From NCBI GenBank assembly GCA_013361685.1, contig JABFXP010000192.1, positions 1-38,623 of the forward strand: a DNA stretch of 38,623 nt. The letters are read 5' to 3'. Position 1 is the stretch's first letter. Every line of letters begins with the position of its first letter. Under the pieces are notes generated by a model. It saw only the letters and a program-made list of their open reading frames with translations, had not been told where the DNA came from and did no database searches. A program made the position numbers and the translations under genes. Shown piece after piece: positions 2,900 to 37,029 of the stretch. The DNA comes from Catenulispora sp. (lineage in GTDB: Bacteria; Actinomycetota; Actinomycetes; Streptomycetales; Catenulisporaceae).

Positions 2900-2925
2900 C
2901 TGCTCCGCTGGATCTTTTGTCGCCG

Positions 2926-2951
2926 GGGCCGCCCAACGAGGGCGGCCCTTT
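2926..2951 (+). terminator. Strong hairpin in the leader of the 2970 gene
   Basis: GGGCCGCCC (2926-2934) pairs perfectly with GGGCGGCCC (2940-2948) across the five-base loop AACGA, followed by TTT. It is either the terminator of the upstream operon with a promoter embedded ahead of it, or an attenuator acting on transcripts from 2906. Confidence 0.65.
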
Positions 2952-2969
2952 CGCACACAGGGGGTGAAC

Positions 2970-3194: not shown

Positions 3195-3239
3195 CGGCAT
3201 CACCGCACAACCACCACCATCACCACCAGGAGTACCGAC

Positions 3240-3650: not shown

Positions 3651-3940
3651 GCGACGAGTACACCGGCCGCGTCATCATCACCTGGCCGCAGCCCCAGGCC
3701 GGGCTCACCCACGGCGCCACCGTCAAGCTGACCGACGCGGACAGCGGCGAGGACATTGTCAGTGCACTCGACCTCACCGTCACCGTCACCCTCGACGCGG
3801 CCATCGTCGCCGAGATGACAATGCTCACCGACGCAGACGGCCACCCGGCAGGCGTAAGCCCGGTCCGCGACGAAGACGGCGAGACCCTGCGCACCGCCCG
3901 GTTCCGCTGGCTCGTCGCCGAGATGCGCACCGTCGCCTAA
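3647..3940 (+). CDS. Hypothetical beta-rich protein (97 aa)
   Basis: Function unknown. The 97-residue product alternates hydrophobic and Thr/Asp residues (RVIITWPQPQ, ATVKLTDADSGEDIVSALDL, VTVTLDAAI), indicating a beta-sandwich. It ends in a short helix FRWLVAEMRTVA. It looks like a small structural or binding module rather than an enzyme. Translation is coupled to the upstream gene by an ATGA overlap. It is the last protein gene before the tRNA cluster, and a 10-bp hairpin at 4008 ends the unit. Confidence 0.6.
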   Translation: MSDEYTGRVIITWPQPQAGLTHGATVKLTDADSGEDIVSALDLTVTVTLDAAIVAEMTMLTDADGHPAGVSPVRDEDGETLRTARFRWLVAEMRTVA

Positions 3941-4007
3941 CCCCCCGAACTGCCGCGCCCGGTGCTGCGCGGCCCGCAGGCCGATGCCAGAAGGCGACGC
4001 CTGCCCC

Positions 4008-4035
4008 GTGCGGCCCGGTGAGGGTCGGGCCGCAC
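4008..4035 (+). terminator. 10-bp hairpin terminator before tRNA cluster
   Basis: GTGCGGCCCG (4008-4017) pairs perfectly with CGGGCCGCAC (4026-4035) around an eight-base loop. There is no T-run. It is placed 68 bases after the last stop and 109 bases before the first tRNA. Confidence 0.6.
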
Positions 4036-4143
4036 GGCCATCCCACTCCCGCCGCCCACGCCTACCGGCCCACGGAACCGGAAGACGGGCGGCGGGAAAC
4101 AACTCGGTCGCCGCGGCGACCAGCAAGCGGCTAGCCTGCACAA

Positions 4144-4216
4144 AGCGCTGTGGAGCAGCTGGTAGCTCGCTGGGCTCATAACCCAGAGGTCGCAGGTTCG
4201 AGCCCTGTCGGCGCTA
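4144..4216 (+). tRNA. tRNA-Met(CAT), initiator-like
   Basis: A full cloverleaf: acceptor AGCGCTG/CGGCGCT (one G-T pair), D stem GAGC/GCTC, anticodon stem CTGGG/CCCAG with loop CTCATAA, five-base variable loop, T stem GCAGG/CCTGT with loop TTCGAGC, discriminator A. The three stacked G-C pairs under the anticodon and the A11-T24 pair in the D stem are hallmarks of bacterial initiator tRNA. The body is almost the actinobacterial initiator as I remember it, but the acceptor stem is different. Position 1-72 is an A-T pair rather than the usual mismatch. CCA is not encoded (ACGA follows). Confidence 0.85.
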
Positions 4217-4290
4217 CGAGGGGCTCTCGCCTCGGACCCCTAACATGCCGGGTCGCGCCCGGCTAGGGCTTCGGCCTGAAGCGAGGCGGT
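4217..4290. other. Spacer between tRNA 1 and tRNA 2
   Basis: No T-arm (GTTCRA) or anticodon arm can be found here, so it is not a fifth tRNA. It contains a small inverted repeat, CGAGG (4217-4221) with CCTCG (4230-4234), directly after the first tRNA's 3' end, which could help processing. Confidence 0.4.
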
Positions 4291-4363
4291 TGGCCCGTAG
4301 CTGAATTGGCAAAGCATCCGCCCCCCGGGCGGGTTGGTGCAGGTTCGAGCCCTGCCGGGTCAG
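4291..4363 (+). tRNA. tRNA with anticodon CCC (nominal Gly), atypical loop
   Basis: The cloverleaf is sound. The acceptor is TGGCCCG/CGGGTCA and the D arm GCTG-AATTGGCA-AAGC. The anticodon stem is TCCGC/GCGGG with a seven-base loop CCCCCGG, and the variable loop is TTGGT. The T arm is GCAGG-TTCGAGC-CCTGC and the discriminator is G. The anticodon by position is CCC (reads GGG, Gly). The body and the G discriminator look like a tRNA-Asn scaffold, and U33 is replaced by C, so charging identity and function are doubtful. CCA is not encoded. Confidence 0.65.
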
Positions 4364-4366
4364 CTT

Positions 4367-4453
4367 GGAGAGGTCCGCCTGTCGGCATAGGCAACGGCCT
4401 GCTAAGCCGTAGGTCTTCGGGCCTCGCGGGTTCGACTCCCGCCCTCTCCGCCA
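4367..4453 (+). tRNA. tRNA-Ser(GCT)
   Basis: A class II tRNA. The acceptor GGAGAGG/CCTCTCC is perfect. The D stem is GCC/GGC and the anticodon stem ACGGC/GCCGT with loop CTGCTAA (anticodon GCT, reads AGC/AGT). A long variable arm AGGTC-TTCG-GGCCT supports Ser. The T arm is GCGGG-TTCGACT-CCCGC, the discriminator G is at 4450, and CCA is encoded at 4451-4453. It is the only one of the four with an encoded CCA. Confidence 0.9.
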
Positions 4454-4454
4454 C

Positions 4455-4537
4455 GGAAGGTCCGGCATTGGCGTGCCAAGCGCTCCCGAAAAGCGTGGCG
4501 GGTAACACCGCTGGGGGTTCGAATCCCTCACCTTCCG
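4455..4537 (+). tRNA. tRNA-Ser(CGA), atypical C33
   Basis: A class II tRNA one base after the previous one. The acceptor is GGAAGGT/ACCTTCC and the D stem GGC/GCC. The anticodon stem is GCGCT/AGCGT with loop CCCGAAA, giving anticodon CGA (reads TCG). The long variable arm has stem GCGG/CCGC. The T arm is GGGGG-TTCGAAT-CCCTC and the discriminator is G. Position 33 is C instead of the near-universal U, and two bases (AA) rather than one separate the D and anticodon stems. CCA is not encoded (CAT follows). Confidence 0.75.
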
Positions 4538-4583
4538 CATCGAATCCGCCGCCGCCCCCCCGCACCCCTGTAGGAGCACCACC

Positions 4584-4862
4584 ATGCCGTTCTCGCTCAC
4601 CGGCATCAAGACCGCCATCACCCACCTGTTCGGCGTCGAGGAGACCAAGGCCCACCACCTCGTGGAAGCCGTCCGGGCCGACCTCACCCCCGTCCTCACG
4701 CAGGCTGAGGAACAGCTCCACGGCCTCATCACCGAAGGCCACAACGACCTCGAAGCGCTCCTCACCAAGGGCCTCGCCGACATCCGGGCCGACCTCGCCG
4801 AGATCAAGGCCGCCCTCGGGTCCGCGCCCGCCCCGGCGCCCGGGCCGAAGCCCGCCGCCTGA
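4584..4862 (+). CDS. Helical hypothetical protein with Ala/Pro tail (92 aa)
   Basis: Function unknown. Residues 5-78 are almost entirely amphipathic helix (HLFGVEETKAHHLVEAVRAD ... LITEGHNDLEALLTKGLAD ... LAEIKAALGS), likely a helical bundle or coiled coil, followed by a disordered APAPAPGPKPAA tail. The ATG has GTAGGAG at 4571-4577. The gene follows the tRNA cluster directly and is two bases upstream of a tiny membrane protein. The layout suggests a small structural or membrane-associated partner, but no family is recognised. Confidence 0.65.
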   Translation: MPFSLTGIKTAITHLFGVEETKAHHLVEAVRADLTPVLTQAEEQLHGLITEGHNDLEALLTKGLADIRADLAEIKAALGSAPAPAPGPKPAA

Positions 4863-4864
4863 CC

Positions 4865-5014
4865 ATGCTCAACCTCCTCTGCTACACGGTCGCCGTGGTC
4901 CTCTTCGGGATCGCCGCGCTCCTGCCGACCGCGCCGTACCGGGACCGCATCGCCTACGCCGGACTCTGCGCCCTCGCTGTACCCCTGTTCGCCCACGCCG
5001 CACAAACCCGCTGA
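4865..5014 (+). CDS. Tiny membrane protein, two TM segments (49 aa)
   Basis: A 49-residue hydrophobic protein. Segment one is LLCYTVAVVLFGIAALL (about residues 4-20), a short loop PTAPYRDR carries the charge, and segment two is IAYAGLCALAVPLFAHAA (about 29-46). The two segments with a short charged turn would fit a small holin-like hairpin. The location far from the lysis genes argues against a main holin. The start is two bases after the previous stop (TGACCATG) and relies on translational coupling. The codon use matches the neighbours, so it is probably a real gene. Confidence 0.6.
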   Translation: MLNLLCYTVAVVLFGIAALLPTAPYRDRIAYAGLCALAVPLFAHAAQTR

Positions 5015-5034
5015 GTTGACCGGGAGGCGGTGTC

Positions 5035-5403
5035 GTGTCCCAACTCCCGCAGAACTGGAACACCTCGGCTGCCGTCGGATCCGAATGGGCGCAGACGTTC
5101 ACCCTGTCCAACAACGGCGTCCCCGTCGACCTGACCGGCTGGACATGGGAATTCGTGATCCGCCCCGACGTCGAAGACCAGACCGCGAACCCGCTCGTCA
5201 AGGTCACCATGACCTCCGGCTCGCAGGGCCAGATCACCGTCGTACCCACCACCGGCACCGTGACCGTCACCCTCACCCCCGCCGCCACAGCCGCACTCGG
5301 CACCGGCTTCAAAACCCACGCGCTCTACGCCAACCCCGGCACCACCACCCAGGCATGCTGGGTCGCCGGGATCTTCAACGCCCAGGCCACCGCCGCACCA
5401 TGA
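5035..5403 (+). CDS. Ig-like/BppU-type structural protein (122 aa)
   Basis: Probably a small virion or fibre-base protein. The sequence is a typical phage beta-sandwich: an N-terminal WAQTFTLSNNGVPVDLTGWT strand pair, WEFVIRPDVED, then alternating strands (VKVTMTSGSQGQITVVPTTG, VTVTLTPAATAAL), and a final AGIFNAQ strand. The LTGWTWEF pattern recalls the N-terminal domain of baseplate upper protein-like phage proteins. The GTG start has GGGAGG at 5022-5027. It lies eight bases before the collagen-like gene. The pair may form a fibre anchor and shaft, but their place upstream of the terminase is unusual for tail genes. Confidence 0.6.
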   Translation: MSQLPQNWNTSAAVGSEWAQTFTLSNNGVPVDLTGWTWEFVIRPDVEDQTANPLVKVTMTSGSQGQITVVPTTGTVTVTLTPAATAALGTGFKTHALYANPGTTTQACWVAGIFNAQATAAP

Positions 5404-5419
5404 CTCGGGGGTGGGTGCC

Positions 5420-5995
5420 GTGACCGTCAACATCTCCACCCCGCCCACCGTGGTCGTCTCAGCCACCGGCGTCCAAGGGCCACCCGGCCCCACCGGACCC
5501 GCAGGGCCAGCGGGACCCGCAGGGCCAGCAGGCGGCACCACCATCCGCACCGCGCTCGCCCGCATCACCGACGACAACCTCTCCGGCCTACCCGCCGCCA
5601 CCACCTGGACGATCGTCAAAACGTCCGCCGGAACCCCCCTCCAAAGCTCCATCGCCGCCACCGCAGGCGACCGCATCATGATCTTCCCCCTGTTCATGTA
5701 CACCGGCGGCCACTACCTCGACTGGGCAGTCCTCAACTCCAGCGGCGGCATCGACGAATACCTCGGATCCGGCACCGCAACACCCCTCGGCGAAGGCAAC
5801 CCCACCCTGTACCCGTCGACATCCTTCTCCAAGGCCACGGCCGCCGACCTGGTCACCGTCACCAGCGGGCAACTCGCCGCCGGGCAAGTCACCATCGCCC
5901 TCGCACACCAAGGCACCACTACCGGCACCGTCTACGCCTACAGCCTCTACCCGTGGCGACTGCGCCTCCACAACATAGGGCCCGAACCTGCGTGA
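5420..5995 (+). CDS. Collagen-like fibre protein (191 aa)
   Basis: A trimeric fibre protein is likely. After a short N-terminal strand (VNISTPPTVVVSATG), residues 18-39 form a collagen Gly-X-Y run ([19 protein letters not shown]). A beta-rich C-terminal domain of about 150 residues (DRIMIFPLFMYTGGHYLDWA, VTVTSGQLAAGQVTIALAHQ) would be the trimer head. The GTG at 5420 has GGGGGTGG (5407-5414) at good spacing; the GTG at 5411 is in frame but overlaps that site. In phages, such collagen segments act as stiff trimerising shafts of head or tail fibres. Here it is placed between an Ig-like protein and the small terminase. Confidence 0.7.
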   Translation: MTVNISTPPTVVVSATGVQGPPGPTGPAGPAGPAGPAGGTTIRTALARITDDNLSGLPAATTWTIVKTSAGTPLQSSIAATAGDRIMIFPLFMYTGGHYLDWAVLNSSGGIDEYLGSGTATPLGEGNPTLYPSTSFSKATAADLVTVTSGQLAAGQVTIALAHQGTTTGTVYAYSLYPWRLRLHNIGPEPA

Positions 5996-6064
5996 AGCGA
6001 CGCGGCACCGACCACCGCTGGCAGAGCATGCAGGAACCAGAGACTTCCAGGGGGGTGGCCCGCC

Positions 6065-6607
6065 GTGCCGGACGTCAGCGCCCGCAATCGCACCTCCCAA
6101 GGTCGTTTCATCCGCGGTAAAGACGAGATCGAGCACGACGCCGAAGCTGCCCGCCTCCGTGGCGAGGGCCTCTCCTACGCCGCCATCGGCAAACGCCTCG
6201 GCATCTCCAAGTCCCACGCCTGGGAGGCCGTCCAAAGGGCATTCCGCGACACACTGCGGGAGCCCGCCGACCAGGCCCGCGCTGTCGAACTCGCCCGCCT
6301 CGAAGCCGCCCACGATGCTGCGATGGCCGTCCTCGAACGCGAACACCTCGCCATCTCCCACGGCCGCGTCGTCGAAGGCCCCGACGGCACACCCCTCGTA
6401 GACGACGCGCCGATCCTGCAAGCCATCAACACGATCATGCGCCTGTCCGAATCGCGGAGACGACTCCTCGGCCTCGACGCACCGCAGCGGACAGAGGTGA
6501 TCCCGATCAGTGTCATCGACGAAGAGATCCGTCTCCTCACCGACGAACTCGCCGCTTTTGACGATGCGGCTGGAACGCCTCCGCCAACTGAAGGCGCTCC
6601 GGACTGA
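6065..6607 (+). CDS. terS: Terminase small subunit (180 aa)
   Basis: The small terminase binds the packaging start site and loads the large subunit. Residues 25-60 hold a helix-turn-helix (AARLRGEGLSYAAIGKRLGI then SKSHAWEAVQRAF). A central helical oligomerisation region follows (residues 70-140), then a C-terminal segment with a short acidic helix. The fold order and the position directly before the large terminase support the call. The GTG start has GGGGGG at 6051-6056. The last 44 bases overlap the large subunit gene in another frame, a common arrangement that couples the two. Confidence 0.8.
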   Translation: MPDVSARNRTSQGRFIRGKDEIEHDAEAARLRGEGLSYAAIGKRLGISKSHAWEAVQRAFRDTLREPADQARAVELARLEAAHDAAMAVLEREHLAISHGRVVEGPDGTPLVDDAPILQAINTIMRLSESRRRLLGLDAPQRTEVIPISVIDEEIRLLTDELAAFDDAAGTPPPTEGAPD

Positions 6608-8213
6608 ATACGAGCAGCGCCGCAACGACGCACGCCCCGGAAGTGAGTCCGCGGCCCGCTTCTACAGCGACCCTGTCGGGTTCGCCACCACCTGCATCGA
6701 CTGGGGCAACGCAGGCGGCCTCACCACTTACCAGTGCGACCTACTCGCGCACCTGCCCACCCACCGGCGAGTAGCCGCCCGCGGGCCCCACGGCCTCGGC
6801 AAGACCACCACCGAAGCCGTGGCCGTCCTGTGGTTCGCCCTCACCCGCGATGCTGCCGGAGTCGACTGGAAGGTCGCGACCACTGCCGGCGCGTGGCGGC
6901 AGTTGGAACGCTACCTATGGCCCGAGATCAAGAAGTGGGCGAAGAAGATCCGCTGGGAAACCCTCGGCCGACGCCCCCTCGACGAGCGCACCGAACTCCT
7001 GTCGCTCAACATGAAGCTCCGGCACGGCACAGCCTTCGCCGTCGCCAGCAGCAACGCCGAACTCATCGAAGGCGTCCACGCCGACTCAGTCTTGTACATC
7101 TTCGACGAGTCCAAAGCCATCGGAGCCGACACCTTCCAAGCCGCCGAAGGCGCCTTCTCCGGTGCCGACCCCGCGGGCGGCATCCCCGAAGCATTCGCCC
7201 TCGCCTGCTCCACCCCCGGCGAACCCAACGGCATCTTCTACGACATCCACCGCCGCGCCCCCGGCCTCGAAGACTGGTGGCCCCGCCACGTCACCCTCGC
7301 CGAAGCCGCGGCGGCCGGACGCGTCTCCCTCGGCTGGGCCGAGCAGCGCAAGAGGCAGTGGGGCGAGAACAGTGCCGCCTACCAGAACCGCGTCCTCGGC
7401 GAGTTCTACACCTCCGACGAAGACGGCGTCATTCCTCTCGGATGGATCGAAGCCGCCAACGACCGGTGGCGCGTCTGGGACGAAGCCGGCCGGCCCGAAA
7501 CGCCAGGACGGCGCGCCCTCGGCGTGGACGTCGCCCGCTCCGGTGCGGACAAGACCGTCATGGCCCTCCTGGACGGCAACATCATCACCGAACTGCGGCG
7601 CACAGACCGCGAGGACACGATGCAGACCACCGGCCGCGTCCACGGCATCATCAACGCCGCCCCCGGCCGCATGCCGGTCGTGGACGTCATCGGAGTCGGC
7701 GCGGGCGTCGTCGACCGGCTGCGAGAGCTGAAAGTCCCCGTGGAGGCTTTCAACGCCAGCGAGAGCACGGGCCGAACCGACCGGTCCGGTGAACTCGGCT
7801 TCGCCAACAAGCGGTCCGCGGCCTGGTGGAACCTGCGGGAACTGCTCGATCCCGCCTACGGCCACGACCTCGCACTTCCACCAGACGATCTCCTCACCGG
7901 TGACCTGACGGCCCCGCACTGGCGCGTCCTGTCCGGAGGCAAGATTCAGGTGGAGTCCAAAGACGACATCCGTAAGCGCATCGGACGATCCACCGACGAC
8001 GGCGACGCCGTGGTGCAAGCCGCATGGGACGACGACACCGGCGCGCAGGCGTGGATCGACTACGCCCGCCGCAAGGCCGAAGCACTCGCCGGGCAGACGG
8101 ACACCAGCGAGACGACCACACCACCACCCGATCAGACCCCCGTTGAGGATCCCGCCGCGGCCCGCAAGGCTGCTCGTGATGCCGCGTTCCGCGCCCAGCA
8201 GCAACGCCGGTAG
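6564..8213 (+). CDS. terL: Terminase large subunit, ATPase-nuclease (549 aa)
   Basis: The packaging motor. Walker A is RGPHGLGKTT (residues 73-82, Lys80). Walker B is VLYIFDE with Asp181 and catalytic Glu182. A coupling motif region follows near FALACSTPGEPNG. The RNase-H-like nuclease has acidic residues Asp322 (LGVDVARSG), Asp374 (VVDVIGVGAG) and Asp481 (DDGDAVVQA). The length is usual for the family. The ATG at 6564 was chosen because it gives the normal N-terminus RLERLRQLK; longer versions only read through the small-subunit gene. The C-terminal 45 residues are Ala/Thr/Pro-rich and disordered. It is followed closely by the portal. Confidence 0.93.
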   Translation: MRLERLRQLKALRTEYEQRRNDARPGSESAARFYSDPVGFATTCIDWGNAGGLTTYQCDLLAHLPTHRRVAARGPHGLGKTTTEAVAVLWFALTRDAAGVDWKVATTAGAWRQLERYLWPEIKKWAKKIRWETLGRRPLDERTELLSLNMKLRHGTAFAVASSNAELIEGVHADSVLYIFDESKAIGADTFQAAEGAFSGADPAGGIPEAFALACSTPGEPNGIFYDIHRRAPGLEDWWPRHVTLAEAAAAGRVSLGWAEQRKRQWGENSAAYQNRVLGEFYTSDEDGVIPLGWIEAANDRWRVWDEAGRPETPGRRALGVDVARSGADKTVMALLDGNIITELRRTDREDTMQTTGRVHGIINAAPGRMPVVDVIGVGAGVVDRLRELKVPVEAFNASESTGRTDRSGELGFANKRSAAWWNLRELLDPAYGHDLALPPDDLLTGDLTAPHWRVLSGGKIQVESKDDIRKRIGRSTDDGDAVVQAAWDDDTGAQAWIDYARRKAEALAGQTDTSETTTPPPDQTPVEDPAAARKAARDAAFRAQQQRR

Positions 8214-8227
8214 AAGGGGGTCCGCCC

Positions 8228-11200
8228 GTGGGCGTCCGCTCCCGCCTCGCCAGCCTCGTCAAGGTCTTCGGCAGCAACATCCCCGCCAGCATGGAAGCCG
8301 GCGAGGCAGCCTCCCAGATGACGCCCACCACGCCGTTCAGCCCGGGCGAGCCCATCGGCCCCTACGACGGCTACCAGCGCAACCCCCGGTCGCAGGACTT
8401 CGTCACCGGCTACAACATCGCGACCCGGCCCCGCACCCACGAGCGCGTCTCCTTCGACACGCTGAAAGGCCTGATCGACGCCTACGACGTCGCGAGCATG
8501 TGCATCTGGCACCGCATCGACTCGATCCGCTCCCTGGACTGGTCGCTGATCGCCGCCAAGGGCTACGGCGGGGACGTCACCGACGCCATCCCCGTCGGCA
8601 TGGCCGCCCTCAAGAAGCCCGACCGGGAGCTGCCGTTCGAGTCGTGGCTGGCCGCATGGCTGTACGACATCCTCGCCTACGACGCCGGCACCCTGTACCG
8701 GCTCCGCAACCGCGGTGGCCGCGCCATCGGGCTGCGCGTCGTGGACGGCACCACCATCGCCCCGCTCCTCGACTACTGGGGCAACAGCCCCGCCGCCGCG
8801 GGCCCGGACAAGCCGGAGCCGCCCGCCTACGTCCAGTACGTGCAGGGCCTGCCGTGGAACTGGCTGACCCGCAAGGACATGATCTACACCCCGTTCCGGA
8901 AGATCCCCGGTTCGCCATATGGCCGGGCGCCACTGGAGAGCATCCTCCTCAACGCGAACACCGACTTGCGGTTCCAGGCGTACTTCCTGCAGCGCTTCAC
9001 CGAGGGCAACATCCCGCAAGCCTTCGCGAGCGCCCCAGAGTCGTGGACACCGCAGCAGATCGAACTGTTCCAGGAGACCTGGGACTCACTCATGCTCGGC
9101 GACCAGTCCGTCAAGTCCCAGATCCGATGGCTTCCCGGCGGCAGCCAGATCGCCTGGTCCAATGAGAAGGACTTCACCGACTCGTTCAGCCTGTTCCTGA
9201 TGCGGAAGACCGCTGCCGCCTACCACGTCGTGCCAGCAGACCTGGGCTTCACCGAGAACGTCAACCGCAGCAGCGGCGAGAGCCAGGCGGACGTGCAGCA
9301 CCGCGTCGGCGACCTGCCCCTCATCAAGCACGTCCAGGGCATCATCAGCAGCTTCCTGCAGGACGACCTCGGCCTGCCCCTGCGGTTCGCGTTCGACCTG
9401 GGCGAGGAGCAGGTCGACCGCCGCGACCAAGCCGAAGCCGACAAGATCTACGTCGACATGGGCGCCATCAGTGCGAGCACCGTTCGCGAACTTCGGTACG
9501 GGTTGCCCGAGCCCGAAGGCCAGCCCGTACCCCGGTTCGTGTTCACCACCCACTCCGGGCCCATTCCCCTGTCGTCTCTGTACGCCGTCGCGGGACAGAT
9601 CGACCCGAACACAGCAGCACCCGCGCCCGGCGCAGAACTGCCGCGTACCGTGTTCAGCGGCGTCGAGGGCACCGAACCGAGCCCGCCGATCAAGGGCTTT
9701 CCGCTCGCCGAGCAGATCTACGGGCCGTCCGCGATGCCCCCCGCCCCGCCGCCGCAACCCGCCACGACCGCGCCGAGCGGGGTGGAAAAGGACGGGGCGC
9801 CCGCTGGGGGTATCACCACCGAGACGGGCATCGTCGGATACGACCTCGCCGGGCGTTACCACGAGGACGACGAGGCCGAGACCGACGAGGCGGATCGCGA
9901 GGAACTGGTCAAGGCCGAACTCGTCGCGTTCCGGCGGTTCCGCAAGGCCCGCAGCCGTGCGGGAGTCTGGCGGGACTTCGAGTTCCGGGCGGCCGACCCC
10001 ATCAAGGGACGACGCCTCAACCAGGCCGGCCGCCTCGCTGTCCGCAAAGCCGCAGGCGAGGTCGCGGTCGCCGGGTTCGCTGTCCGGGCCGCCGACACCG
10101 GGCGCGTCCTCATGCTGCAGCGGGCCCTCGACCCCGACGATCCTGCCGCGGGCTGCTGGGAATTCCCCGGCGGTCACCTTGAGGGCGACGAGACGCCACT
10201 GCAGGGGGCGTGGCGGGAGTGGGCCGAGGAGACCGGGCTCATCCCCCCATCCGGGGAGAAGACCGGTGCCTGGACCAGCGCGAACGGCATCTACCAGGGC
10301 ATCGTGTGGACCGTCGCCACGGAATCATCCGTGCCCGTCAACGGCGACCGGGAGATCACCAACCCCGACGATCCAGACGGGGACTGCGTGGAGGCGATCG
10401 CCTGGTGGGACCCGGAGCAACTCGCCGACAACCCGGCCGTCCGACAGGAACTCCTCGACGACCTTCCCGATGTCCTCGCCGCCCTCGGTGTACCGCAGGA
10501 GCAGGACGACGAGGTGGTCAAGGCCGGCACGGGAAAAGCCGCCGCCCTCGCGACGGGGGCGGACTGGCCCGGCTGGAACCTTGATCTGCACGCCGCTAAC
10601 CACTGGGCGCCACGTATTGCCGGGGCGCTCGGCGGGGCACTGACGGTCCACCATTCGGAGCAGCTCGCCCGCGACTGGGCCGCACAGGCGCCCGCCGCTG
10701 ATGATGGTCAGGCCCCGAAGGCGCGGCAGGCTGCGGCCGGGGCATGGCTGGCGGGGCAGCAGCCCAACCTCGCCGGACCCGTCGCCGCTGTCCTGGCCGG
10801 CCTGTACGCCGACGCCTACCTCATCGGCAGCGCCTCCGCCATCGCCAGCCTCGACGGCGGACAGCCCTCGCTCGGCGACTGGGCCCACGGCGACACCGAC
10901 CAAGCCACCAGCCAAATCGATGCGCTCGGCACCGCCGACGGCCTGCCACTCCTGACCGACACCGCGACCAGCACCGCCCAGGGCATCACCGACGCCCGCC
11001 TGAAGGACATGGCCAAGGTGCTGGCCGTCGGCGGCTCGATCGCCGCCGTGGCGGCAGCCCTGCGGGCCGCGCTCGCCGACCCCGACAGTGCCCTCGCTGT
11101 CGCCCTCACCGAAATCACCCGCGGATCCGCCGCTGGAGCCCTCGCCGCCTACCAGCTGCGGGGCATCACCACCGGGCGCTGGGGACTCGACCCCAGCAGC

Positions 11201-11326
11201 AAAACCTGCCCCCGCTGCATCACCAACGCCGCCGCCGGACCGATTCCGCTCGGCCAGCCCTACCCGTCCGGTGACACGGCCCCGCCGGCCCACCCGCGCT
11301 GCCGGTGCAGTCTCCTCGGCTACTAG
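8228..11326 (+). CDS. Portal-Nudix-MuF triple fusion protein (1032 aa)
   Basis: Three proteins in one reading frame. Residues ~60-430 are a phage portal (SFDTLKGLIDAYDVASMCIW, the GNIPQAFAS region, NRSSGESQADVQHRVGD). A disordered, then acidic linker follows (about 430-600). Residues ~610-755 are a Nudix hydrolase with a complete Nudix box, G649-x5-E655-x7-R663-E664-W-x-E667-E668-x-G670-L. The rest is a MuF/SPP1 gp7-like head morphogenesis domain ending in the typical CPRC ... HPRCRC signature (about 992-1032). The GTG has GAAGGGGG upstream. The portal forms the packaging ring and MuF-type domains are carried into the virion; the Nudix domain presumably hydrolyses a nucleoside diphosphate derivative. 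The frame is continuous with normal codon use throughout. Confidence 0.88.
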   Translation: MGVRSRLASLVKVFGSNIPASMEAGEAASQMTPTTPFSPGEPIGPYDGYQRNPRSQDFVTGYNIATRPRTHERVSFDTLKGLIDAYDVASMCIWHRIDSIRSLDWSLIAAKGYGGDVTDAIPVGMAALKKPDRELPFESWLAAWLYDILAYDAGTLYRLRNRGGRAIGLRVVDGTTIAPLLDYWGNSPAAAGPDKPEPPAYVQYVQGLPWNWLTRKDMIYTPFRKIPGSPYGRAPLESILLNANTDLRFQAYFLQRFTEGNIPQAFASAPESWTPQQIELFQETWDSLMLGDQSVKSQIRWLPGGSQIAWSNEKDFTDSFSLFLMRKTAAAYHVVPADLGFTENVNRSSGESQADVQHRVGDLPLIKHVQGIISSFLQDDLGLPLRFAFDLGEEQVDRRDQAEADKIYVDMGAISASTVRELRYGLPEPEGQPVPRFVFTTHSGPIPLSSLYAVAGQIDPNTAAPAPGAELPRTVFSGVEGTEPSPPIKGFPLAEQIYGPSAMPPAPPPQPATTAPSGVEKDGAPAGGITTETGIVGYDLAGRYHEDDEAETDEADREELVKAELVAFRRFRKARSRAGVWRDFEFRAADPIKGRRLNQAGRLAVRKAAGEVAVAGFAVRAADTGRVLMLQRALDPDDPAAGCWEFPGGHLEGDETPLQGAWREWAEETGLIPPSGEKTGAWTSANGIYQGIVWTVATESSVPVNGDREITNPDDPDGDCVEAIAWWDPEQLADNPAVRQELLDDLPDVLAALGVPQEQDDEVVKAGTGKAAALATGADWPGWNLDLHAANHWAPRIAGALGGALTVHHSEQLARDWAAQAPAADDGQAPKARQAAAGAWLAGQQPNLAGPVAAVLAGLYADAYLIGSASAIASLDGGQPSLGDWAHGDTDQATSQIDALGTADGLPLLTDTATSTAQGITDARLKDMAKVLAVGGSIAAVAAALRAALADPDSALAVALTEITRGSAAGALAAYQLRGITTGRWGLDPSSKTCPRCITNAAAGPIPLGQPYPSGDTAPPAHPRCRCSLLGY

Positions 11327-27234: not shown

Positions 27235-27987
27235 GTGGCCATCTCGCCGGCCTGGCAGCCGGCCGTCGTTGGGGCACAGGGCACGGCCGGGCACGTCAAC
27301 CAGTTCCTCGTCGGTCACGAGTCGACGGTCTCCTACGGTGGGACGCTGCAGGGCTCGTCGGCTCCCGGTAGCGGCGTCTACAGCAGCACGCAGACCCAGT
27401 GGCTCTCCCAGCAGTTCGTTACCGCGGCGGCCCAGACCACGGTCGGCTATGTGCGCCTGCAGATCAGTGACGTCGGCGGTTCTCCCACGCTGGCACTGAT
27501 CCCGTCGCTGACCGTCGAGTTGTACGCCGACTCGCTGGGGCTGCCCACGGGGCCCGTACTCGCGTCGGCGACCGTCACCGGCCAGTACCTGTACTCCCAG
27601 CCGTGGTGGGCGACGATCCCGCTGGCGGCATCCGGGCTCACCGCGGGTACCCCGTACCAGATTGTGACCAGCATGGCCGGGGCCGCGGGCCACTACTACG
27701 TGTGGCAGCACTCCACGACTGCGGGCGGCAGCGGCACCTCACCCGACGGCACCACCTGGACGGCGAACAGCTTCGGGCTGATGTACCAGATCTTCGACCA
27801 GAACGGCGGCGCCAGCACGATGCCCCTGATCCTCGACGAGGACAACGGCCTGCGGGTGACTTCGTTCACCTACAACGCCAGCAACCAACTCGCCTCGATC
27901 TCCACGTACACCACGAGCAGCGCGGGCACGGTTGCCTACGCCGCCTCGCTGACCTACTCCAACGGCCTGATCACGGGGGTGGGCTGA
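27235..27987 (+). CDS. Tail fibre protein, fibre paralogue A (250 aa)
   Basis: One of three related fibre proteins. The shared N-terminal module is PAWQPAVVGAQGTAGHVNQF with LVGHES. Next comes a beta-sandwich (VGYVRLQISDVGGSPTLALI, TVELYADSLGLPTGPVLASA, IPLAASGLTAGTPYQIVTS, then HYYVWQHSTTAGGSGTSPDG). The shared C-terminal TYNASNQLASISTYTT resembles an RHS/YD-like strand pair. The sandwich looks like a carbohydrate-binding fold, so the protein probably contributes to receptor recognition. The start is GTG at 27235 with AGGG at 27223; an in-frame GTG at 27229 has worse spacing. The stop and next start share TGATG. Confidence 0.75.
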   Translation: MAISPAWQPAVVGAQGTAGHVNQFLVGHESTVSYGGTLQGSSAPGSGVYSSTQTQWLSQQFVTAAAQTTVGYVRLQISDVGGSPTLALIPSLTVELYADSLGLPTGPVLASATVTGQYLYSQPWWATIPLAASGLTAGTPYQIVTSMAGAAGHYYVWQHSTTAGGSGTSPDGTTWTANSFGLMYQIFDQNGGASTMPLILDEDNGLRVTSFTYNASNQLASISTYTTSSAGTVAYAASLTYSNGLITGVG

Positions 27988-30020
27988 TGCCGTACCTGGT
28001 TGGCTATGTGACGCCGCAGGACTATGGGGCCGCCGGCGATGGCGTCACGGACGACACGGCCGCGTTCCAGTCGGCGCTCACCGCAATCAGCAACGCGGGC
28101 GGCGGGGTGCTGATGGTCCCCCCGGGTCTCAGTTACCGCCTGAACGGCACGGTCCACGTCGGCTCGAACACCACCATCAACGCCTACGGCGCCACCATGT
28201 TCGCGGGCGCCGGCGCGGGTCAGCCGCTGCTCGACAACTACCTCGGCCAGACCTCGCCCACGGTCTACAACGGCAATGGGAACATCACGATCCTCGGCGG
28301 GATCTGGGACGCCCGCGGGCAGACCTACCCGACCGACAGTGCTGACACGATTTTCTTCGGTCACGCCTCGTACATCACCTGCCGGGACCTCACCATCCGG
28401 AACACCCGCGGATACCACGGGATCGAGGTCAACGCGATCAACCACGCCCTGGTCGCTGGCTGCCGCTTCGAGGGCTACAGCACCGCCGGCCACACCTCCG
28501 ACGGTGAGGCCATCCAGGTTGATGTGGCGATCGCCGGGGCCGGGCTGCCCGCGAACGATGGCACGGAGTGCGCCGACATCACCGTGGACGACTGCTACGC
28601 CGGGCCGGCGGGCGACGGCTCGGGCCTGGGCTCCTACGGCTCCCTCATCGGCGGCCATAGCGCGCAGGGCAACAACTCCTACCAGGGCATCCGCGTTTTC
28701 AACAGCACCGCGGACACCTGTTTGTACTTCGGGATCCACGCCTACAACTGGGCCAAGTGCGAGATCACCGGCTGCACAATCATCAACTCGGGCGACGCCG
28801 GGATCTTCATCGACACGCAGAACACGGGCGGCTACCAGCCGGACTCGATCAGTGTCACCGGCAACAGCGTCACGGGCGCCACCAACTACGGCGTCTTCAT
28901 CAACGGCAGCGGCGCGTTCGCCAGCAACTACGTCGCGGACATCTCCATCACCGGCAACACCATCCGCAACATCACGTCGGGCACGGGCCTCGCCGGGATC
29001 TACGTCCTGTATGCCACGGGCGCAACGGTGTCCGGGAACACGATCTACAACTGCACCACTGACGGCATCCTGTGCAGCAACGACACCTTCCTGACGGTGG
29101 AGTCCAACACTGTCCACACGTGCTCGACTGGGGTGTCGGTCAGCGGCTGCACGCAGGTGCAGATCAACGGCAACGACCTGCAGACGGGCAGCTCGAACGG
29201 CGTGTTCCTCGGACAGACTGCGGGCCTCGTTAATACGAGCGACGTGATCGTCAGCGGCAACACGATCGAGAACTACACTAACGCCCAGGTTCGGGGCGGC
29301 ACGTCCGCGACCGACGTGCTGGTCGTCGGGAACAAGCTGACCAAGGGCGTCAACGGCCAGTTCGGCGTGGAGCTGGTCAACACCAATACGGGCTGGGCGG
29401 TCTACGACAACTACCTCGACGGCTCGTGGACGCTGGCCAACGCCCTGAACGGCATCAACAACACCAACAAGCCCACCGTTTGGCCGGACGGCCGCTACGG
29501 GATCCGGGGCTCCAACACGTGGGGCACGCAGCTCGACCCGCGCCTCACCACGGCCACCGTCGCGAACACTGCCACCGAGACCGTGATCGGGACGTTCACG
29601 ATCCCGGCGAATGACGCGCAGGCCGGCGGGGTCTACCGGGCCACCATGTACGGCACCGCCAGCAGCACCGGCACCCCCACGATCACGTTCAAGGTCCGTT
29701 TGGGGGGCGTCAGCGGGCAGATCCTCGCGTCGTTCCCCGCGGTCACCACGGCATCCGGTGTGGCCTCCGGCGGGTGGCTGGTCGAGACCCGGCTGCTGTG
29801 CATTGTCAACGGCGCCGCCGCGACCTGGTCGGCGAGTTCTGCCCTGAACCAGCAGATCGCCAGCCTCACCGCCGGCACCAGCTCGGTCGCGCTCACGAAC
29901 GGCACCGTCACCGTCGACTCCACCATCAACGAGGCCCTCGTCGTCACCGCGACCTGGTCCGCCGCATCAGCCTCCAACACCGCCAGCAGCACGGCTGGCC
30001 TGCTGTACCGGGACTACTGA
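27987..30020 (+). CDS. Tailspike, right-handed beta-helix (pectate-lyase-like, 677 aa)
   Basis: A receptor-binding or polysaccharide-degrading tailspike. The N-terminal DYGAAGDGVTDDTAAF (about residues 12-27) is the hallmark of the Pectate_lyase_3 superfamily. It is followed by many parallel beta-helix coils with Asn/Gly ladders (ISVTGNSVTGATNYGVFING, ISITGNTIRNITSG, VSGNTIYNCTTDGI, VSGCTQVQINGNDL, VSGNTIENYTN), over roughly residues 10-510. A C-terminal beta domain (about 530-677, FTIPANDAQAGGVYRATMYG ...) likely trimerises or binds sugar. The start overlaps the previous stop (TGATG). Catalytic residues cannot be assigned by eye; a role against host exopolysaccharide or teichoic acid is inference. 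Confidence 0.85.
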   Translation: MPYLVGYVTPQDYGAAGDGVTDDTAAFQSALTAISNAGGGVLMVPPGLSYRLNGTVHVGSNTTINAYGATMFAGAGAGQPLLDNYLGQTSPTVYNGNGNITILGGIWDARGQTYPTDSADTIFFGHASYITCRDLTIRNTRGYHGIEVNAINHALVAGCRFEGYSTAGHTSDGEAIQVDVAIAGAGLPANDGTECADITVDDCYAGPAGDGSGLGSYGSLIGGHSAQGNNSYQGIRVFNSTADTCLYFGIHAYNWAKCEITGCTIINSGDAGIFIDTQNTGGYQPDSISVTGNSVTGATNYGVFINGSGAFASNYVADISITGNTIRNITSGTGLAGIYVLYATGATVSGNTIYNCTTDGILCSNDTFLTVESNTVHTCSTGVSVSGCTQVQINGNDLQTGSSNGVFLGQTAGLVNTSDVIVSGNTIENYTNAQVRGGTSATDVLVVGNKLTKGVNGQFGVELVNTNTGWAVYDNYLDGSWTLANALNGINNTNKPTVWPDGRYGIRGSNTWGTQLDPRLTTATVANTATETVIGTFTIPANDAQAGGVYRATMYGTASSTGTPTITFKVRLGGVSGQILASFPAVTTASGVASGGWLVETRLLCIVNGAAATWSASSALNQQIASLTAGTSSVALTNGTVTVDSTINEALVVTATWSAASASNTASSTAGLLYRDY

Positions 30021-30784
30021 TGGCCACCGCCCCCACCTGGCAGGCCGCCGTCGCCGGCCAGCCCCCACGAGCTGCCCACGTCGACCAACTCCTCGGCCCG
30101 CACGCCACGACCGTGCTGTACCTCGGCACCCAGACGGACGGACAGACCACCAGCGCCGCAGGTACAGTCTCCACCAACGGCACCTGGCTGGCGCAGCAGA
30201 TCACGACGGCTGCTGGGCAGACCGCGATCGGGTCGGTGTCACTGGCGCTGACGTCCACCACCACGACGGGGGCGTCCCTGGCGCCCACGACGGTCAGCCT
30301 GTATGCCAACGCGGGGGGCGCGCCGACGGGCGGACCGCTGATCTCCGTCACCTACACCGCCGAGTACGCCTACCAGGCCAGTAGTGGCGGCGTGTCCACC
30401 ACTCGCATCCGCATCCCGATGCCGGTCTCCGGACTGACGCCCAGTACTACGTACTGGCTCGTGGCCGCCGCGGCCGGGACCGCGGGCAACAACTACGTGT
30501 GGAACAAGTCCAACCAGGTCGCCGGAGCGTCGACCTCCCCGGATGGCGTCACGTGGACGGCGCAGGCTTACGGACTGGTGTACACGGTCAACGACCAGAC
30601 CGCGGCGGGCAACATCCGGACCACGTGGGCGGACGGCGGGGCCCGCTGGGCCATGTACACCTACAACGCTTCCGGGCTGGTCACCGGCTACTTCGAGTAC
30701 ACGGCAGGCCAGACCGCGGCCGGCTACGTGCAGTCGTCCCGGACGTTCACCTACAGCGGTAATGCGCTCGCTTCGATCGCCTGA
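30020..30784 (+). CDS. Tail fibre protein, fibre paralogue B (254 aa)
   Basis: The second member of the fibre family. Its N-terminus PTWQAAVAGQPPRAAHVDQL with LGPHAT aligns with the 27235 protein. The sandwich core follows the same path (TAIGSVSLALTSTTTTGASL, TVSLYANAGGAPTGGPLI, IPMPVSGLTPSTTYWLVAAA, then NNYVWNKSNQVAGASTSPDG, and TWTAQAYGLVYTVND), as does the C-terminal YTYNASGLVTGYFEYT. Identity to the first paralogue is moderate, showing long divergence or exchange. The start shares TGATG with the tailspike stop. The protein probably decorates the same tail tip with different sugar specificity. Confidence 0.75.
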   Translation: MATAPTWQAAVAGQPPRAAHVDQLLGPHATTVLYLGTQTDGQTTSAAGTVSTNGTWLAQQITTAAGQTAIGSVSLALTSTTTTGASLAPTTVSLYANAGGAPTGGPLISVTYTAEYAYQASSGGVSTTRIRIPMPVSGLTPSTTYWLVAAAAGTAGNNYVWNKSNQVAGASTSPDGVTWTAQAYGLVYTVNDQTAAGNIRTTWADGGARWAMYTYNASGLVTGYFEYTAGQTAAGYVQSSRTFTYSGNALASIA

Positions 30785-31302: not shown

Positions 31303-33606
31303 ATGCCGACCACACCGGCCTGGGAGGCCGCCCGGAACGGGTTCCCCGGGGACCTCGACGCCGTCAACCACGCCACGCAGATCAACCAGCATCTCGGCAC
31401 CCACGCCATCGACTGCGTGTATGCGGGTAACGCCATCGTCACGCCCTACGGAGGCGGCTTCCTTTGGTCGGCGAGTGCCACGCTCAACGACCACAGCCAG
31501 CCGTTCACGATGCCCGCTGGGCACACCGCGATCGGCAGGATCACCGTGCCGATCCTCGCAACCGGCGGGGCCGCTGATCTCGTCGTCAGCCTGTGCCCGG
31601 ACGACGGCTCCGGAAACCCCGTGATCACAAGCCCCCTCGCCACCACTACCATCCCGGCGGACTGGTTCCTCAACCTGTCGACTGTCACCGGGGTCGTCGG
31701 CGCAGGGGAAGATACGACGGCAGCCCCGCTGGCTGCACCCTCCTTCAACAGCACGGCCCTCACCAACACTGTCACCAAGAACTGGAACGTGCCCGCAGTG
31801 GGGCCAAACGGGGCGGGCGCGTACTCAGCTCCCGTCACCTCCGGCAACTACGCCGTCTTCCTCGGCGGCTACGACGCGACGAACGCCACGGCCGAGTCTG
31901 CTGTGGCCACCGTGCAGTACCTGGGGAATCAGAACCTCAGCGGGCCCACACTGCAGCCCTCACTGCCTCAGGCCCTCTACTTCGCGGCAGCGGCGGCAAC
32001 TTCGGGAGCCATCGTCGTCGCGGGCGGCCAGCCCACAACGACCACCACCACCGCGAACGTCTGGGTGGCGAGCTGGAACAACCAGACCGGCCAGGTGGGC
32101 GCCTGGAGCAAGCAGACCTCACTGCCCGTATCGGTCGGCCAGAACACGATGGCCGCCTACGGTGACACCGTCTACATGATCGGCGGCATCAGCGGTAGTA
32201 CCGTCAATCCCAACGTGTACACGGCGACCGTGTCGAACGGGCAGATCGGATCATGGACCGTGGGGCCTCCTCTCCCGGGGCCGCCCCTCTTCGCTCAGTG
32301 TGCCGCCGTGGTCGGCAACTGGCTCATCGTCGCCGGGGGCCAGGATCAGCCGGGCAACGTCTACGCGACGACCTACTACTCGGCGATCAACGCGGACGGC
32401 ATGCTGAGCGGATGGAGGATCGGCCCCAATCTGCCAGTGCCCGTGTACCAGGGCTCCCCGCAGTGGGATGTCACCGTCACCGACACCGCCATGATCATCG
32501 TAGGGGGCGTCACCGCTGGCGCCACCGACACGTCGGCCCTCCAAATCCTGGAGACCTCCGCGGCTGGCGTAGGCGCGTGGCAGCAGCAGAACTACCTGAA
32601 CACACCGGCCTACACGCAGGTTCTGGCCTTTCCGGAATCAGACGCGACCTGGACGGTGATCGTCCCGTCCAACTCGCAGTTCTTCCCCGCCTCCGCGTAC
32701 AAGATGCCATTGGCGTCCGTGCCCCTTCCCGTAAGCGGCCTCACCGCGGGGGCCAAGTACCACGTGTACCTGCACCAGGTGGGCGGCGACAGCAGCAACT
32801 TCCTGCAGTTCGGCCTTGAGGGGAGCGCCCTGCCCGACGGCTTCCTGTTTCGGCCCGTGTACACCACTGGCGCCTGGTCGACGGACGCGCCAACCGCGGC
32901 GGTCATGGCCGTCTTCGACCAGACAGCCACGGGACCGCTCCTGCATATATGGGAGGACCCGTCCAGCATCGGGACGGCGCCCCGGGCCACCACGATGGTG
33001 TACGACGGGGGCGGCAAGCTTCTCGGCCTATGTGAAGCCACCGCCATGTCCAACGAGGCCCTCAACTCGAACCCGACGTTCACCAGCGGCGTCAGTCCGT
33101 GGACCGCGACCAACGGCGCGATCACTCAGTCCAACGCCCAGACCCACGGCGGCCTGCCCTTCTCCGGCCTCCTCACCCCGGCCGGCGGCTCCGCCCAGGC
33201 GTATGCCTCCTCGGAACTCCTCTCCCTTGAGACGAGCAACCCGGCACCCGGCACGCCGCACTGGCTCACCCCCGCCGGCTGGTTCTACTCACCGACTGGC
33301 TGGGCCAGCTTCTCACTGTCCGTGAACTGGTTCGACGCAGGGCGAAACTACCTGAGCACTAGCAGCAACACCGTGACCCTCCCCGCAGCCACCTGGACGA
33401 ACATCTCCAACGCCTTCCAGGCGCCCACCACCGCCGCCTACGCATCGCTCGTCCCCACCGAGAGCGGCAGCCCGGCGGCCAGCAACCTGCTCTACCTTTC
33501 AAACGTCACGCTCACCTACGCGCCGGGCGTCGTCCGCCCGCTGTCCAGCGTGACCGCCGTCGACTACAACGCGGCAAGCCAGCCTGTCGGCACCACGCAA
33601 CTCTGA
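31303..33606 (+). CDS. Large fibre protein, paralogue C with nested kelch-like propeller and CBM-like domain (767 aa)
   Basis: The third and largest fibre family member. It shares the N-terminal PAWEAARNGFPGDLDAVNHA with LGTHAI and the first sandwich strands (HTAIGRITVPIL, LVVSLCPDDGSG). From about residue 178 to 436 the sandwich is interrupted by five kelch-like units (FLGGY, VVAGGQ, MIGGI, VAGGQ, IVGGV; each with a G-x-W and an LP turn). The sandwich then resumes (LPVSGLTAGAKYHVYLHQVG) and is followed by a CBM-like domain (NPTFTSGVSPWTATNGAITQ) at about 590-750 and the shared TAVDYNAASQPVG. The fold argues for sugar or host-surface binding. The ATG at 31303 is in context after CTGGAG. Nothing suggests a frameshift. 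Confidence 0.85.
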   Translation: MPTTPAWEAARNGFPGDLDAVNHATQINQHLGTHAIDCVYAGNAIVTPYGGGFLWSASATLNDHSQPFTMPAGHTAIGRITVPILATGGAADLVVSLCPDDGSGNPVITSPLATTTIPADWFLNLSTVTGVVGAGEDTTAAPLAAPSFNSTALTNTVTKNWNVPAVGPNGAGAYSAPVTSGNYAVFLGGYDATNATAESAVATVQYLGNQNLSGPTLQPSLPQALYFAAAAATSGAIVVAGGQPTTTTTTANVWVASWNNQTGQVGAWSKQTSLPVSVGQNTMAAYGDTVYMIGGISGSTVNPNVYTATVSNGQIGSWTVGPPLPGPPLFAQCAAVVGNWLIVAGGQDQPGNVYATTYYSAINADGMLSGWRIGPNLPVPVYQGSPQWDVTVTDTAMIIVGGVTAGATDTSALQILETSAAGVGAWQQQNYLNTPAYTQVLAFPESDATWTVIVPSNSQFFPASAYKMPLASVPLPVSGLTAGAKYHVYLHQVGGDSSNFLQFGLEGSALPDGFLFRPVYTTGAWSTDAPTAAVMAVFDQTATGPLLHIWEDPSSIGTAPRATTMVYDGGGKLLGLCEATAMSNEALNSNPTFTSGVSPWTATNGAITQSNAQTHGGLPFSGLLTPAGGSAQAYASSELLSLETSNPAPGTPHWLTPAGWFYSPTGWASFSLSVNWFDAGRNYLSTSSNTVTLPAATWTNISNAFQAPTTAAYASLVPTESGSPAASNLLYLSNVTLTYAPGVVRPLSSVTAVDYNAASQPVGTTQL

Positions 33607-33933: not shown

Positions 33934-34476
33934 ATGGCGCTCGCTGACCTCGCACTCCTCGACCACTATGCCGCGGCCCCGTTCCCGCCGGGCTACGCGG
34001 CCGACAGGCGCACCTTCTACTCCCCGGTCGACGACGTCCACCAGGTGCTGCTCGACCTCGTCCGGTCGGCGACTACGTCGCTGGTCGTCGCCATGTACGG
34101 CTTCGACGATGGCGAGGTCGCGGCAGCACTCCACGAGAAGCTCGACGACCAGCACTGCTACGTGCAGTTGACTCTGGACTCCAGCCAGGCCGGCGGGGTG
34201 CACGAGCGGGCGCTGCTGGCCAAGGATCCGTTCCCCGCGAACTCGGTGGCTGTTGGCCGCAGCGAACACGGGGCGATCATGCACATGAAGGTGCTGATTG
34301 TGGACGGCGTTGACGTCGTGGACGGAAGCACCAACTGGTCCACTTCGGGCGAGACCCTCCAGGACAACCAGCTCACTGTGACGCGCGATCCGCTGCAGGC
34401 AGCCCGCGCTCGGGCTCGCGTGGACGCGATCCACCACCACATGCTGGTCAGCGCGGCACGGAAGGCGGTGGCGTGA
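33934..34476 (+). CDS. Phospholipase D-superfamily protein, single HKD motif (180 aa)
   Basis: An enzyme of the PLD superfamily. The full catalytic motif H117-x-K119-x4-D124-x6-GSTN is intact ([20 protein letters not shown]). It is preceded by [20 protein letters not shown], the typical beta-alpha start, and ends in a helix. The single-motif length (about 180) resembles Nuc-type endonucleases, which dimerise to build the active site, but phospholipid cleavage is also possible. It sits in the lysis region, four bases overlapping the endolysin start, after a GGAGG. It could degrade host DNA, RNA or membrane lipid at lysis. Confidence 0.8.
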
Positions 34477-35401: not shown

Positions 35402-35905
35402 ATGACGGACACCCAGCCCCTCCCCGGCGACTTCGGGCTGTGCCGCATCACCGGCCCCGTCGGCGTGCTGATCCGGCTCGGGCAGTTCCTGGCCGGCGGC
35501 GGGGACGCCGACTACGAGCACGCCTTCGTGTACGTGGGTGATGGGCGGATCGTGGAGGCGCAGCCTGGGGGCGCCCGGGAGACGGAGATGTCCGAGTATG
35601 CGGACCGGCCGATCCTGTGGTCGACGGGGAAGGTCTTGCTGACCAATGCCCGGCGGCAGGCGGTTGTGGCCGCGGCCCGCAGCCTGATCGGCACCCCGTA
35701 TTCGGCCGTCGACTATCTGGCGATCGCCGCGCACCGGCTGCACCTGCCCCTGCCGGGCCTGCGCCGGTACGTGGCGAGTTCGGGGCACATGATCTGCTCT
35801 CAACTGGTCGATGCCGCATACCAGCGCGCGGGGGTTCAGCTCTATGCCGACGGCCGGTGGGACGGCTACGTGACGCCCGCCTCGTTGGCTGCCCTCGTCC
35901 GCTGA
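35402..35905 (+). CDS. Permuted NlpC/P60-like (YiiX/DUF830-type) protein (167 aa)
   Basis: A papain-like enzyme in circularly permuted order. EHAFVYVGDGRIVEAQPGG gives the candidate His40 with Val/Gly strands. SLIGTPYSAVDYLAIAA is the typical central helix. SSGHMICSQLVDAAYQRAG gives the candidate nucleophile Cys132. The early CRITGPVGVLIRLGQFLAGG fits the N-terminal strand and loop of this family. Members cleave peptidoglycan peptides or acyl bonds, so here it could act with the GH25 enzyme as a second lysis activity. The ATG is 11 bases after the endolysin stop, in the same operon. Confidence 0.75.
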   Translation: MTDTQPLPGDFGLCRITGPVGVLIRLGQFLAGGGDADYEHAFVYVGDGRIVEAQPGGARETEMSEYADRPILWSTGKVLLTNARRQAVVAAARSLIGTPYSAVDYLAIAAHRLHLPLPGLRRYVASSGHMICSQLVDAAYQRAGVQLYADGRWDGYVTPASLAALVR

Positions 35906-35935: not shown

Positions 35936-36277
35936 GTGGCTGATGACGTCTCCGCTGGAGAACTCGACCGTCGCCTGGAGGCGCACGAACGCCGCACTGA
36001 CCGGATCCACGCGGAGACGGACAAGCGGATCACGGATCTCGCGAAGGACACGGTCCCGCTGGCCCTGTATCAGCAGGGCGAGCGGGACAGGGACCGGGAG
36101 ATCCAGCGCCTCGACAACGAGCACGAGCAGGACGTGAAGCGGCTCCGTGACGAGATCAAGGAACTCCGGGACCGCCCGCAGATGACATGGGCCCGCTGGC
36201 TGGGGGTCCTCACGGTGGCGGCCGCGTTCCTGGCGCTGGCCGTGCAGGCTTACGGAACACTACGGGGGGCAAAGTGA
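35936..36277 (+). CDS. XhlA-like coiled-coil membrane protein (113 aa)
   Basis: Lysis accessory protein. A charged coiled coil (about residues 5-75: [20 protein letters not shown], then [33 protein letters not shown]) is followed by one C-terminal TM segment [20 protein letters not shown] (about 86-105) and a short RGAK tail. This layout is that of XhlA-type lysis proteins, which sit in the membrane with a cytoplasmic coil. The start GTG at 35936 has GAGGGG at good spacing; GTG 35930 is in frame but would sit on that site. It overlaps the next gene by four bases (GTGA). Confidence 0.7.
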
Positions 36278-37029
36278 CGGAACCGAAACCGCGGGGCCCC
36301 CGCTGGTCGGGGGTTGTTCCGGCCGCGGTGTGGGCACTGGCGCTGCTGGTCGCCGGGTGGCTGGCACTGGTCCTGCACTCGGTGGAGGCGTCGAATCACC
36401 GCTTGGCGAACGGCCAGTCGGCCCAGGCCACGGTCATCAGGCAACTCTCCACGGGCCTGGACACGACACGGCGCCAGCTCCAGGCGCACGGTGTGACTCC
36501 GTCCGCCCCGCCGGCGCAGTCCATCGTCCGCGGCGTGCCCGGCGTGCCGGGCCTTCCGGGAGCGACGGGAGCGCAGGGTGTTCCCGGGCCGGCGGGGAGC
36601 CCTGGACCGACTGGACCACCGGGGCCGGCGGGCGCGACGGGACGGGCGGGTAGTCCGGGGCCCGTGTCGACCGTGCCGGGTCCCGCCGGTTCGCCCGGTC
36701 CGGCCGGGAGCCAAGGGAATCCCGGAGCGGCCGGCGCCCAGGGCCCGGCTGGACCGGCGGGACCTGCCGGCCCGGCCGGGAAGGACGGCAGCAACGGCGC
36801 CCCGGGCCAGCCGCCGGCGGGTTGGACGTACACGTGGACGGACGCGACGGGTGTGACGCATCACGTGACGTGTACGCGGACTGCGGACTCGCCGGACAGC
36901 GCACCCGAGTATTCCTGCGCGGACGACTCCAGCCCTACCCCGTCGCCGTCGGCCTCTTCGTCTCCGGCGTCCCGGGGCCTCCTCGGTCTCGGCATGCTCG
37001 CCACCAGCGCCGCGTACCGGCGCCTGTGA
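36274..37029 (+). CDS. Membrane-anchored collagen-like protein (251 aa)
   Basis: A membrane protein with a collagen shaft. One TM segment ([21 protein letters not shown], about residues 14-35) is followed by a helix, then Gly-X-Y repeats at about 87-179 with one interruption (VSTV at 131-134). After that comes a small Cys-bearing domain (Cys200, Cys215) with [11 protein letters not shown], and a Ser/Pro-rich stretch ending in a weakly hydrophobic [14 protein letters not shown]. The GTG overlaps the XhlA-like stop (GTGA) and follows GGGGGG at 36264. This is the last rightward gene before the terminator. The role may be as a spacer across the cell wall during lysis, or as a surface factor. Confidence 0.75.

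Follow-up and report, generated by a model that had tools for sequence, protein, structure and literature searches.

The 767-aa protein encoded at positions 31303..33606 on the forward strand is a phage fibre sandwich interrupted by a complete six-bladed kelch propeller, located in a loop between two strands. The gene was found as an open reading frame in the tail module of the window, as the analysed stretch of 38,623 bp is called here, and has full-length homologues in other phage contigs. The nested architecture was established by computation. With a probability of roughly two in three, this kelch fibre is a minor tail (fibre) protein and acts in adsorption as a receptor-binding head; binding of the host by the fibre, and of a ligand by the propeller, is what we infer from the analysis, receptor binding being the most likely role.

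The window is one of 980 contigs that make up the 9.5-Mb draft assembly of an actinobacterium. It carries the genes of a tailed phage, with a terminase, a portal, connector proteins, a minor tail protein, a tape measure, a spike and a GH25 endolysin. The kelch gene lies downstream of the tape measure, the spike and two sandwich paralogues, and upstream of the endolysin, which is the location expected of a receptor-binding protein. Paralogue A (27235..27987, forward strand, 250 aa), recognised with the sandwich HMM and by alignment, and paralogue B (30020..30784, forward strand, 254 aa), recognised with the same HMM and modelled with AlphaFold2 (AF2), are stand-alone sandwiches without the insert. 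Between them, a right-handed beta-helix tail spike is encoded at 27984..30020 on the same strand (phrog_2234 tail spike, E 1e-78; Pfam Beta_helix). A similar gene order was found in five related contigs (L001, L002, L004, L005 and L006), where sandwich A, spike and sandwich B are followed by two genes, for the kelch fibre and a small protein, whose order varies.

Several other genes of the window were noted. The portal ORF at 8228-11326 (1,032 aa) combines a NUDIX hydrolase domain at aa 614-740 (E 3e-16) with a C-terminus resembling minor head proteins. Shortly 3' of the kelch fibre and directly before the GH25 endolysin, 33934-34476 encodes a 180-aa protein with a single PLD-like (HKD) domain. 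The product of 35402-35905 is ‘enoyl-CoA hydratase-like’ in PHROGs (E 1e-23), a name that looks misleading; a Pfam match at E 0.001 hints instead at a C92 peptidase of the permuted papain-like type. After the lysis genes, 36187-37029 encodes a protein of collagen-like GPAG/GPPG repeats (Pfam Collagen, E 5e-12), whose N-terminus may hold a membrane segment.

The kelch fibre is divided into nested segments, all on the forward strand. The N-terminal half of the sandwich (aa 1-124, 31303..31674; HMM positions 2-121) is followed by the inserted region (aa 125-467, 31675..32703), which contains the propeller itself (aa 149-466, 31747..32700, delimited on AF2 secondary structure). The C-terminal half of the sandwich (aa 468-583, 32704..33051) precedes a CBM-like domain (aa 584-742, 33052..33528), and the last sandwich strands (aa 743-767, 33529..33603) close the protein; AF2 strands 746-755 and 761-766 parallel strands 235-246 and 249-253 of the stand-alone sandwich.

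An earlier note on this DNA had described five GG-containing kelch-type units at 31835-32610, and these positions proved exact. The GG doublet of the five blades and the tryptophans at their expected positions show little or no variation among 15 homologues. Pfam PF24681 matched aa 178-358 (E 2e-11) with 44.1 bits against a curated cut-off of 50, and Kelch_6 matched below its cut-off (E 6e-4), a curated cut-off being a threshold of detection and not a structural feature. Homologue L025 passes the PF24681 cut-off (51.9 bits), and both L001 and L025 pass that of Kelch_6. A profile of the inserted region, built from six homologues, matched human kelch structures with E-values down to 4e-18.

A model of the full protein was built with AF2 using the 15 homologues (mean pLDDT 83.1, pTM 0.75). 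The propeller core reached a pLDDT of about 90-95, with most ten-residue blocks from 190 to 430 near or above 90; aa 1-34 were poorly modelled and are unreliable. The model is that of a monomer; phage fibres are often trimers. The propeller that the earlier note expected from structure prediction is present: residues 152-445 superimpose on KLHL3 (4ch9) with Z 30.9 and an rmsd of 2.3 over 259 residues, and on Keap1 with Z 30.6. The number of blades had to be revised, as counting the strands of the model gives six. The sixth blade, aa 441-466, lacks the GG doublet and is closed by the N-terminal strand 149-153 together with the C-terminal strands 441-446, 449-455 and 459-466. Since these elements complete the wheel, the insert is larger than the GG-containing units and extends over aa 125-467.

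Insertion of the propeller into a loop of the sandwich, and paralogy of the flanks to the products of 27235 and 30020, had also been proposed and were both borne out. The HMM of the stand-alone sandwich matched the window protein in two collinear blocks, aa 2-124 (E 2e-13) and aa ~468-594 (E 1.5e-10), with the break in the HMM at 121|125. Excision of aa 125-467 raised the best single-domain sandwich score from 38.8 to 84.6 bits, while 300 shuffles of the joined flanks scored at most 8.8 bits. When a deletion of the same length was scanned every 5 residues, the best score was obtained at aa 125 and scores were lower elsewhere. The gain upon excision was also seen in all 14 homologues tested, and in 20 distinct uncultured-phage contigs the sandwich HMM was split in the kelch protein at about HMM position 120-125. 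Reciprocally, the stand-alone paralogues matched the kelch-fibre HMM in adjacent blocks (1 to ~121 and ~460 to 580), skipping the insert. An alignment of the three products had been suggested in the earlier note; run as a plain three-way global alignment, it misaligned the C-terminal flank and would have mimicked a failure; the claim therefore needed a profile test, and the profile and excision tests were used in its place.

In a tree with 25 stand-alone sandwiches, the sandwich halves of 14 kelch fibres formed one clade (100/100), so a single origin of the insertion suffices. Consistent with this tree, the propeller appears to have been inserted once and kept thereafter. Full-length relatives with the same architecture, 33-43% identical, were found on many independent viral contigs from different metagenomes, and further relatives were retrieved from viral contigs with the propeller alone as query. 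Among cultured phages, the whole protein as query matched through its CBM-like domain only, the sandwich gave no match, and a kelch query from contig L054 hit one remote Paenibacillus phage record. Neither the sandwich nor the propeller was recognised by PHROGs. When the propeller profile was run against 296 genomes of the phylum, the only hits were remote kelch proteins of bacteria, none scoring above 51 bits, and no donor emerged. Genome contigs, when scanned, yielded no relative. Among 294 genomes of the host order, stand-alone sandwich relatives were present as prophages only in the window and in one partial match. Such near-absence would be expected if the phage seldom integrates, or if its contig was binned together with the host genome.

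The earlier note also placed a CBM-like domain near the C-terminus, and the domain found there is, according to the model, itself nested in a loop between the last sandwich strands. It sits between model strands 573-581 and 746-755, which correspond to strands 221-232 and 235-246 of the sandwich without insert; the deletion scan fixes its position less sharply than that of the propeller. The domain is optional, being absent in homologues L025 and L027. By tblastn it matched Streptomyces phage tail proteins at 29-37%. The CBM_4_9 profile gave a weak match to homologue L006 only (E 0.035, below the cut-off) and none to the window protein. The CBM-like domain was also seen in Streptomyces and Actinoplanes phages, on tail proteins that are otherwise unrelated, and in contigs L007-L012, on proteins of 1,200-1,700 aa. 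This occurrence on otherwise unrelated tail proteins indicates a mobile module of actinobacteriophage tails.

The orientation of the wheel was derived from the topology of the predicted secondary structure rather than from measured coordinates. In the model the propeller would be circularly permuted. In blades with strands A to D, the chain is predicted to enter before strand D and to leave after strand C, which places the tether with both ends on the AB/CD face. The BC/DA face would then point away from the tether and be free relative to the scaffold, an exposure that may differ in the virion. In Keap1-type domains the ligand is bound on this BC/DA face. Over the 15 homologues, mean column identity was 0.160 in the BC loops, the most variable part of the propeller, compared with 0.291 in the DA loops, 0.336 in AB, 0.462 in CD and 0.372 in the strands. 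Long BC loops vary in many kelch families, and therefore this variability alone is not proof of a ligand-binding face.

A receptor-binding fibre could be arranged as follows. The N-terminal module and the sandwich would dock the protein on the tail tip with the spike and the paralogues, while the untethered face of the propeller and the CBM-like domain would bind glycans on the host surface, such as cell-wall polysaccharide. The kelch fibre would thus add a second host contact beside the spike. The permuted propeller would have been acquired once, by an ancestor in which the sandwich genes were already duplicated. The neighbouring beta-helix spike is itself an obvious candidate for receptor binding or depolymerase activity, and the kelch protein may be secondary to it.

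The propeller might instead be a connector within the tail, a platform for assembly or attachment of the spike and the paralogues and not a host-binding head. Linking proteins to one another is a classic role of kelch domains, the gene accompanies the spike and both sandwich paralogues in the relatives compared, and the DA loops are moderately conserved. The BC loops, however, are more variable than any other part, the sandwich paralogues of the same phage do without a propeller, and propellers also occur in an unrelated fibre domain of other phages. A connector is for these reasons considered unlikely. An enzymatic wheel (a glycosidase, lyase or mutarotase-like protein) processing host surface sugars is still less probable. 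It would resemble the sialidase propellers of endosialidase spikes, and phage endosialidases do use propellers (PMC4901313). The weak match to the cyclically-permuted mutarotase family TIGR03548 (E 6e-4) points the same way, but its 19 bits fall far below the curated cut-off of 243, so that membership of the family is not indicated. Across the 15 homologues the residues conserved in the propeller have structural roles (GG, W, Y, P), and H, K, R and E all stay below 85% conservation, which argues against a catalytic site. The best structural matches are moreover non-enzymatic, peptide-binding kelch domains, though likeness of fold does not settle function. Finally, an assembly artefact or a fusion of separate ORFs, conceivable in a draft assembly of 980 contigs, is refuted by the same full-length architecture on many independent contigs. 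The receptor-binding head is retained as the preferred role. The phage offers internal controls for it, as the same fibre sandwich occurs with and without the inserted wheel, and the contribution of the insert to adsorption can be asked directly.

A second case of nesting was found with the propeller scan in the large-phage IMG/VR contigs L054-L057 (41-225 kb), which are unrelated to the window in these genes. Contig L054 encodes at 1375-11034 five tandem paralogues of ~600 aa each, in which a kelch propeller is nested in a Tail Collar fibre. Tandem Collar/kelch paralogues are also present in L057 (1-8388 of a 225-kb contig), and a single protein of 1,278 aa with about three kelch arrays is encoded in L055 (4174-8007; also in L056). 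The repeats interrupt the Phage Tail Collar domain, as Pfam Collar (PF07484) matches only the part before them, and joining the flanks raised the Collar score in three proteins (25.1 to 35.5, 30.7 to 36.4 and 22.5 to 30.9 bits). Judged by sequence, a D-type strand (W...LP) opens the nested repeats and strands A, B and C conclude them. This order indicates that a wheel permuted in the same way was placed in two unrelated fibre domains. The kelch-Collar proteins of L054, L055 and L057 look like an expanded repertoire of heads. They share with the window protein the nested propeller and its circular permutation, but the surrounding domain is Pfam Collar instead of the sandwich and a CBM-like domain was not detected. 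Tentatively, phages may more than once have built a receptor-binding head of this kind, with a permuted kelch propeller on a loop of unrelated fibre domains and its hypervariable face turned outward, where it could change without disturbing the scaffold. The recurrence in Tail Collar proteins suggests a general route to binding specificity, in which phages do not only swap fibre ends but also insert a domain that is closed and permuted into a loop at the surface.

The sandwich is comparable in structure to known tail-tip domains. The AF2 model of paralogue B (pLDDT 73) matched the phi812 baseplate (9euj chain G) with Z 16.4 and an rmsd of 2.5 over 152 aa, the aligned residues being spread over 468 residues of the chain. 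Other matches were the central fibre of mycobacteriophage Douge (Z 15.4), the lectin-like domain of Cwp84 (Z 14.3) and the Bxb1 tail tip (Z 12.2). Judging from its length, chain G is most likely gp122, annotated as an adsorption-associated tail protein. The sandwich profile had no sequence match in the PDB and hhalign against phi812 gp122 was not significant, so the relation is one of structure only. By its model, the stand-alone sandwich is lectin-like and resembles tail-tip adsorption domains. Arabinomannan and alpha-glucan of mycobacteria are bound by recombinant tail domains of Douge, the domains tested not necessarily being those that match the sandwich (PMC13033339). Douge gp20, the central fibre, and phi812 chain G match the stand-alone sandwich in structure, but have no significant sequence similarity to it and no known kelch propeller.

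That kelch propellers are rare in phages, as stated in the earlier note, holds for cultured phages, although there are reports of kelch proteins in the virions of giant phages (PMC5259590, PMC7760394). Kelch-like proteins are known from Pectobacterium phage CBB (CBB_550/552/554) and from Pseudomonas and Yersinia giant phages (PMC5259590, PMC7760394), and CBB_552 is a proven virion component (PMC5259590). Searched in BFVD, the kelch propeller matched proteins of PhiPA3, Noxifer and Phabio. The giant-phage proteins share the kelch-type beta-propeller with the window protein; those of CBB, however, are wheels of 265-285 aa that stand alone and are not enclosed by another domain. What the giant-phage proteins do has yet to be elucidated (PMC7760394), and after years in which phage kelch proteins were noted without an assigned role, the nested architecture offers a testable one. 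Other types of propeller occur in the receptor-binding proteins of phi11, PRD1 (P2) and PhiKZ (gp131C) (PMC4901313). A precedent for the proposed role is the receptor-binding protein Gp45 of Staphylococcus aureus phage phi11, likewise a tail protein with a propeller in a phage of a Gram-positive bacterium; a GlcNAc pocket has been proposed in it (PMC4901313). The phi11 propeller is five-bladed and stands in line between stem and tower, unlike the loop-nested wheel described here (PMC4901313). The literature searched, drawn mostly from outside subscription papers and preprints, contained no description of a phage fibre with a nested kelch propeller. Kelch virion proteins as such are already known from giant phages such as CBB and PhiPA3; what differs here is the nesting in a fibre domain.
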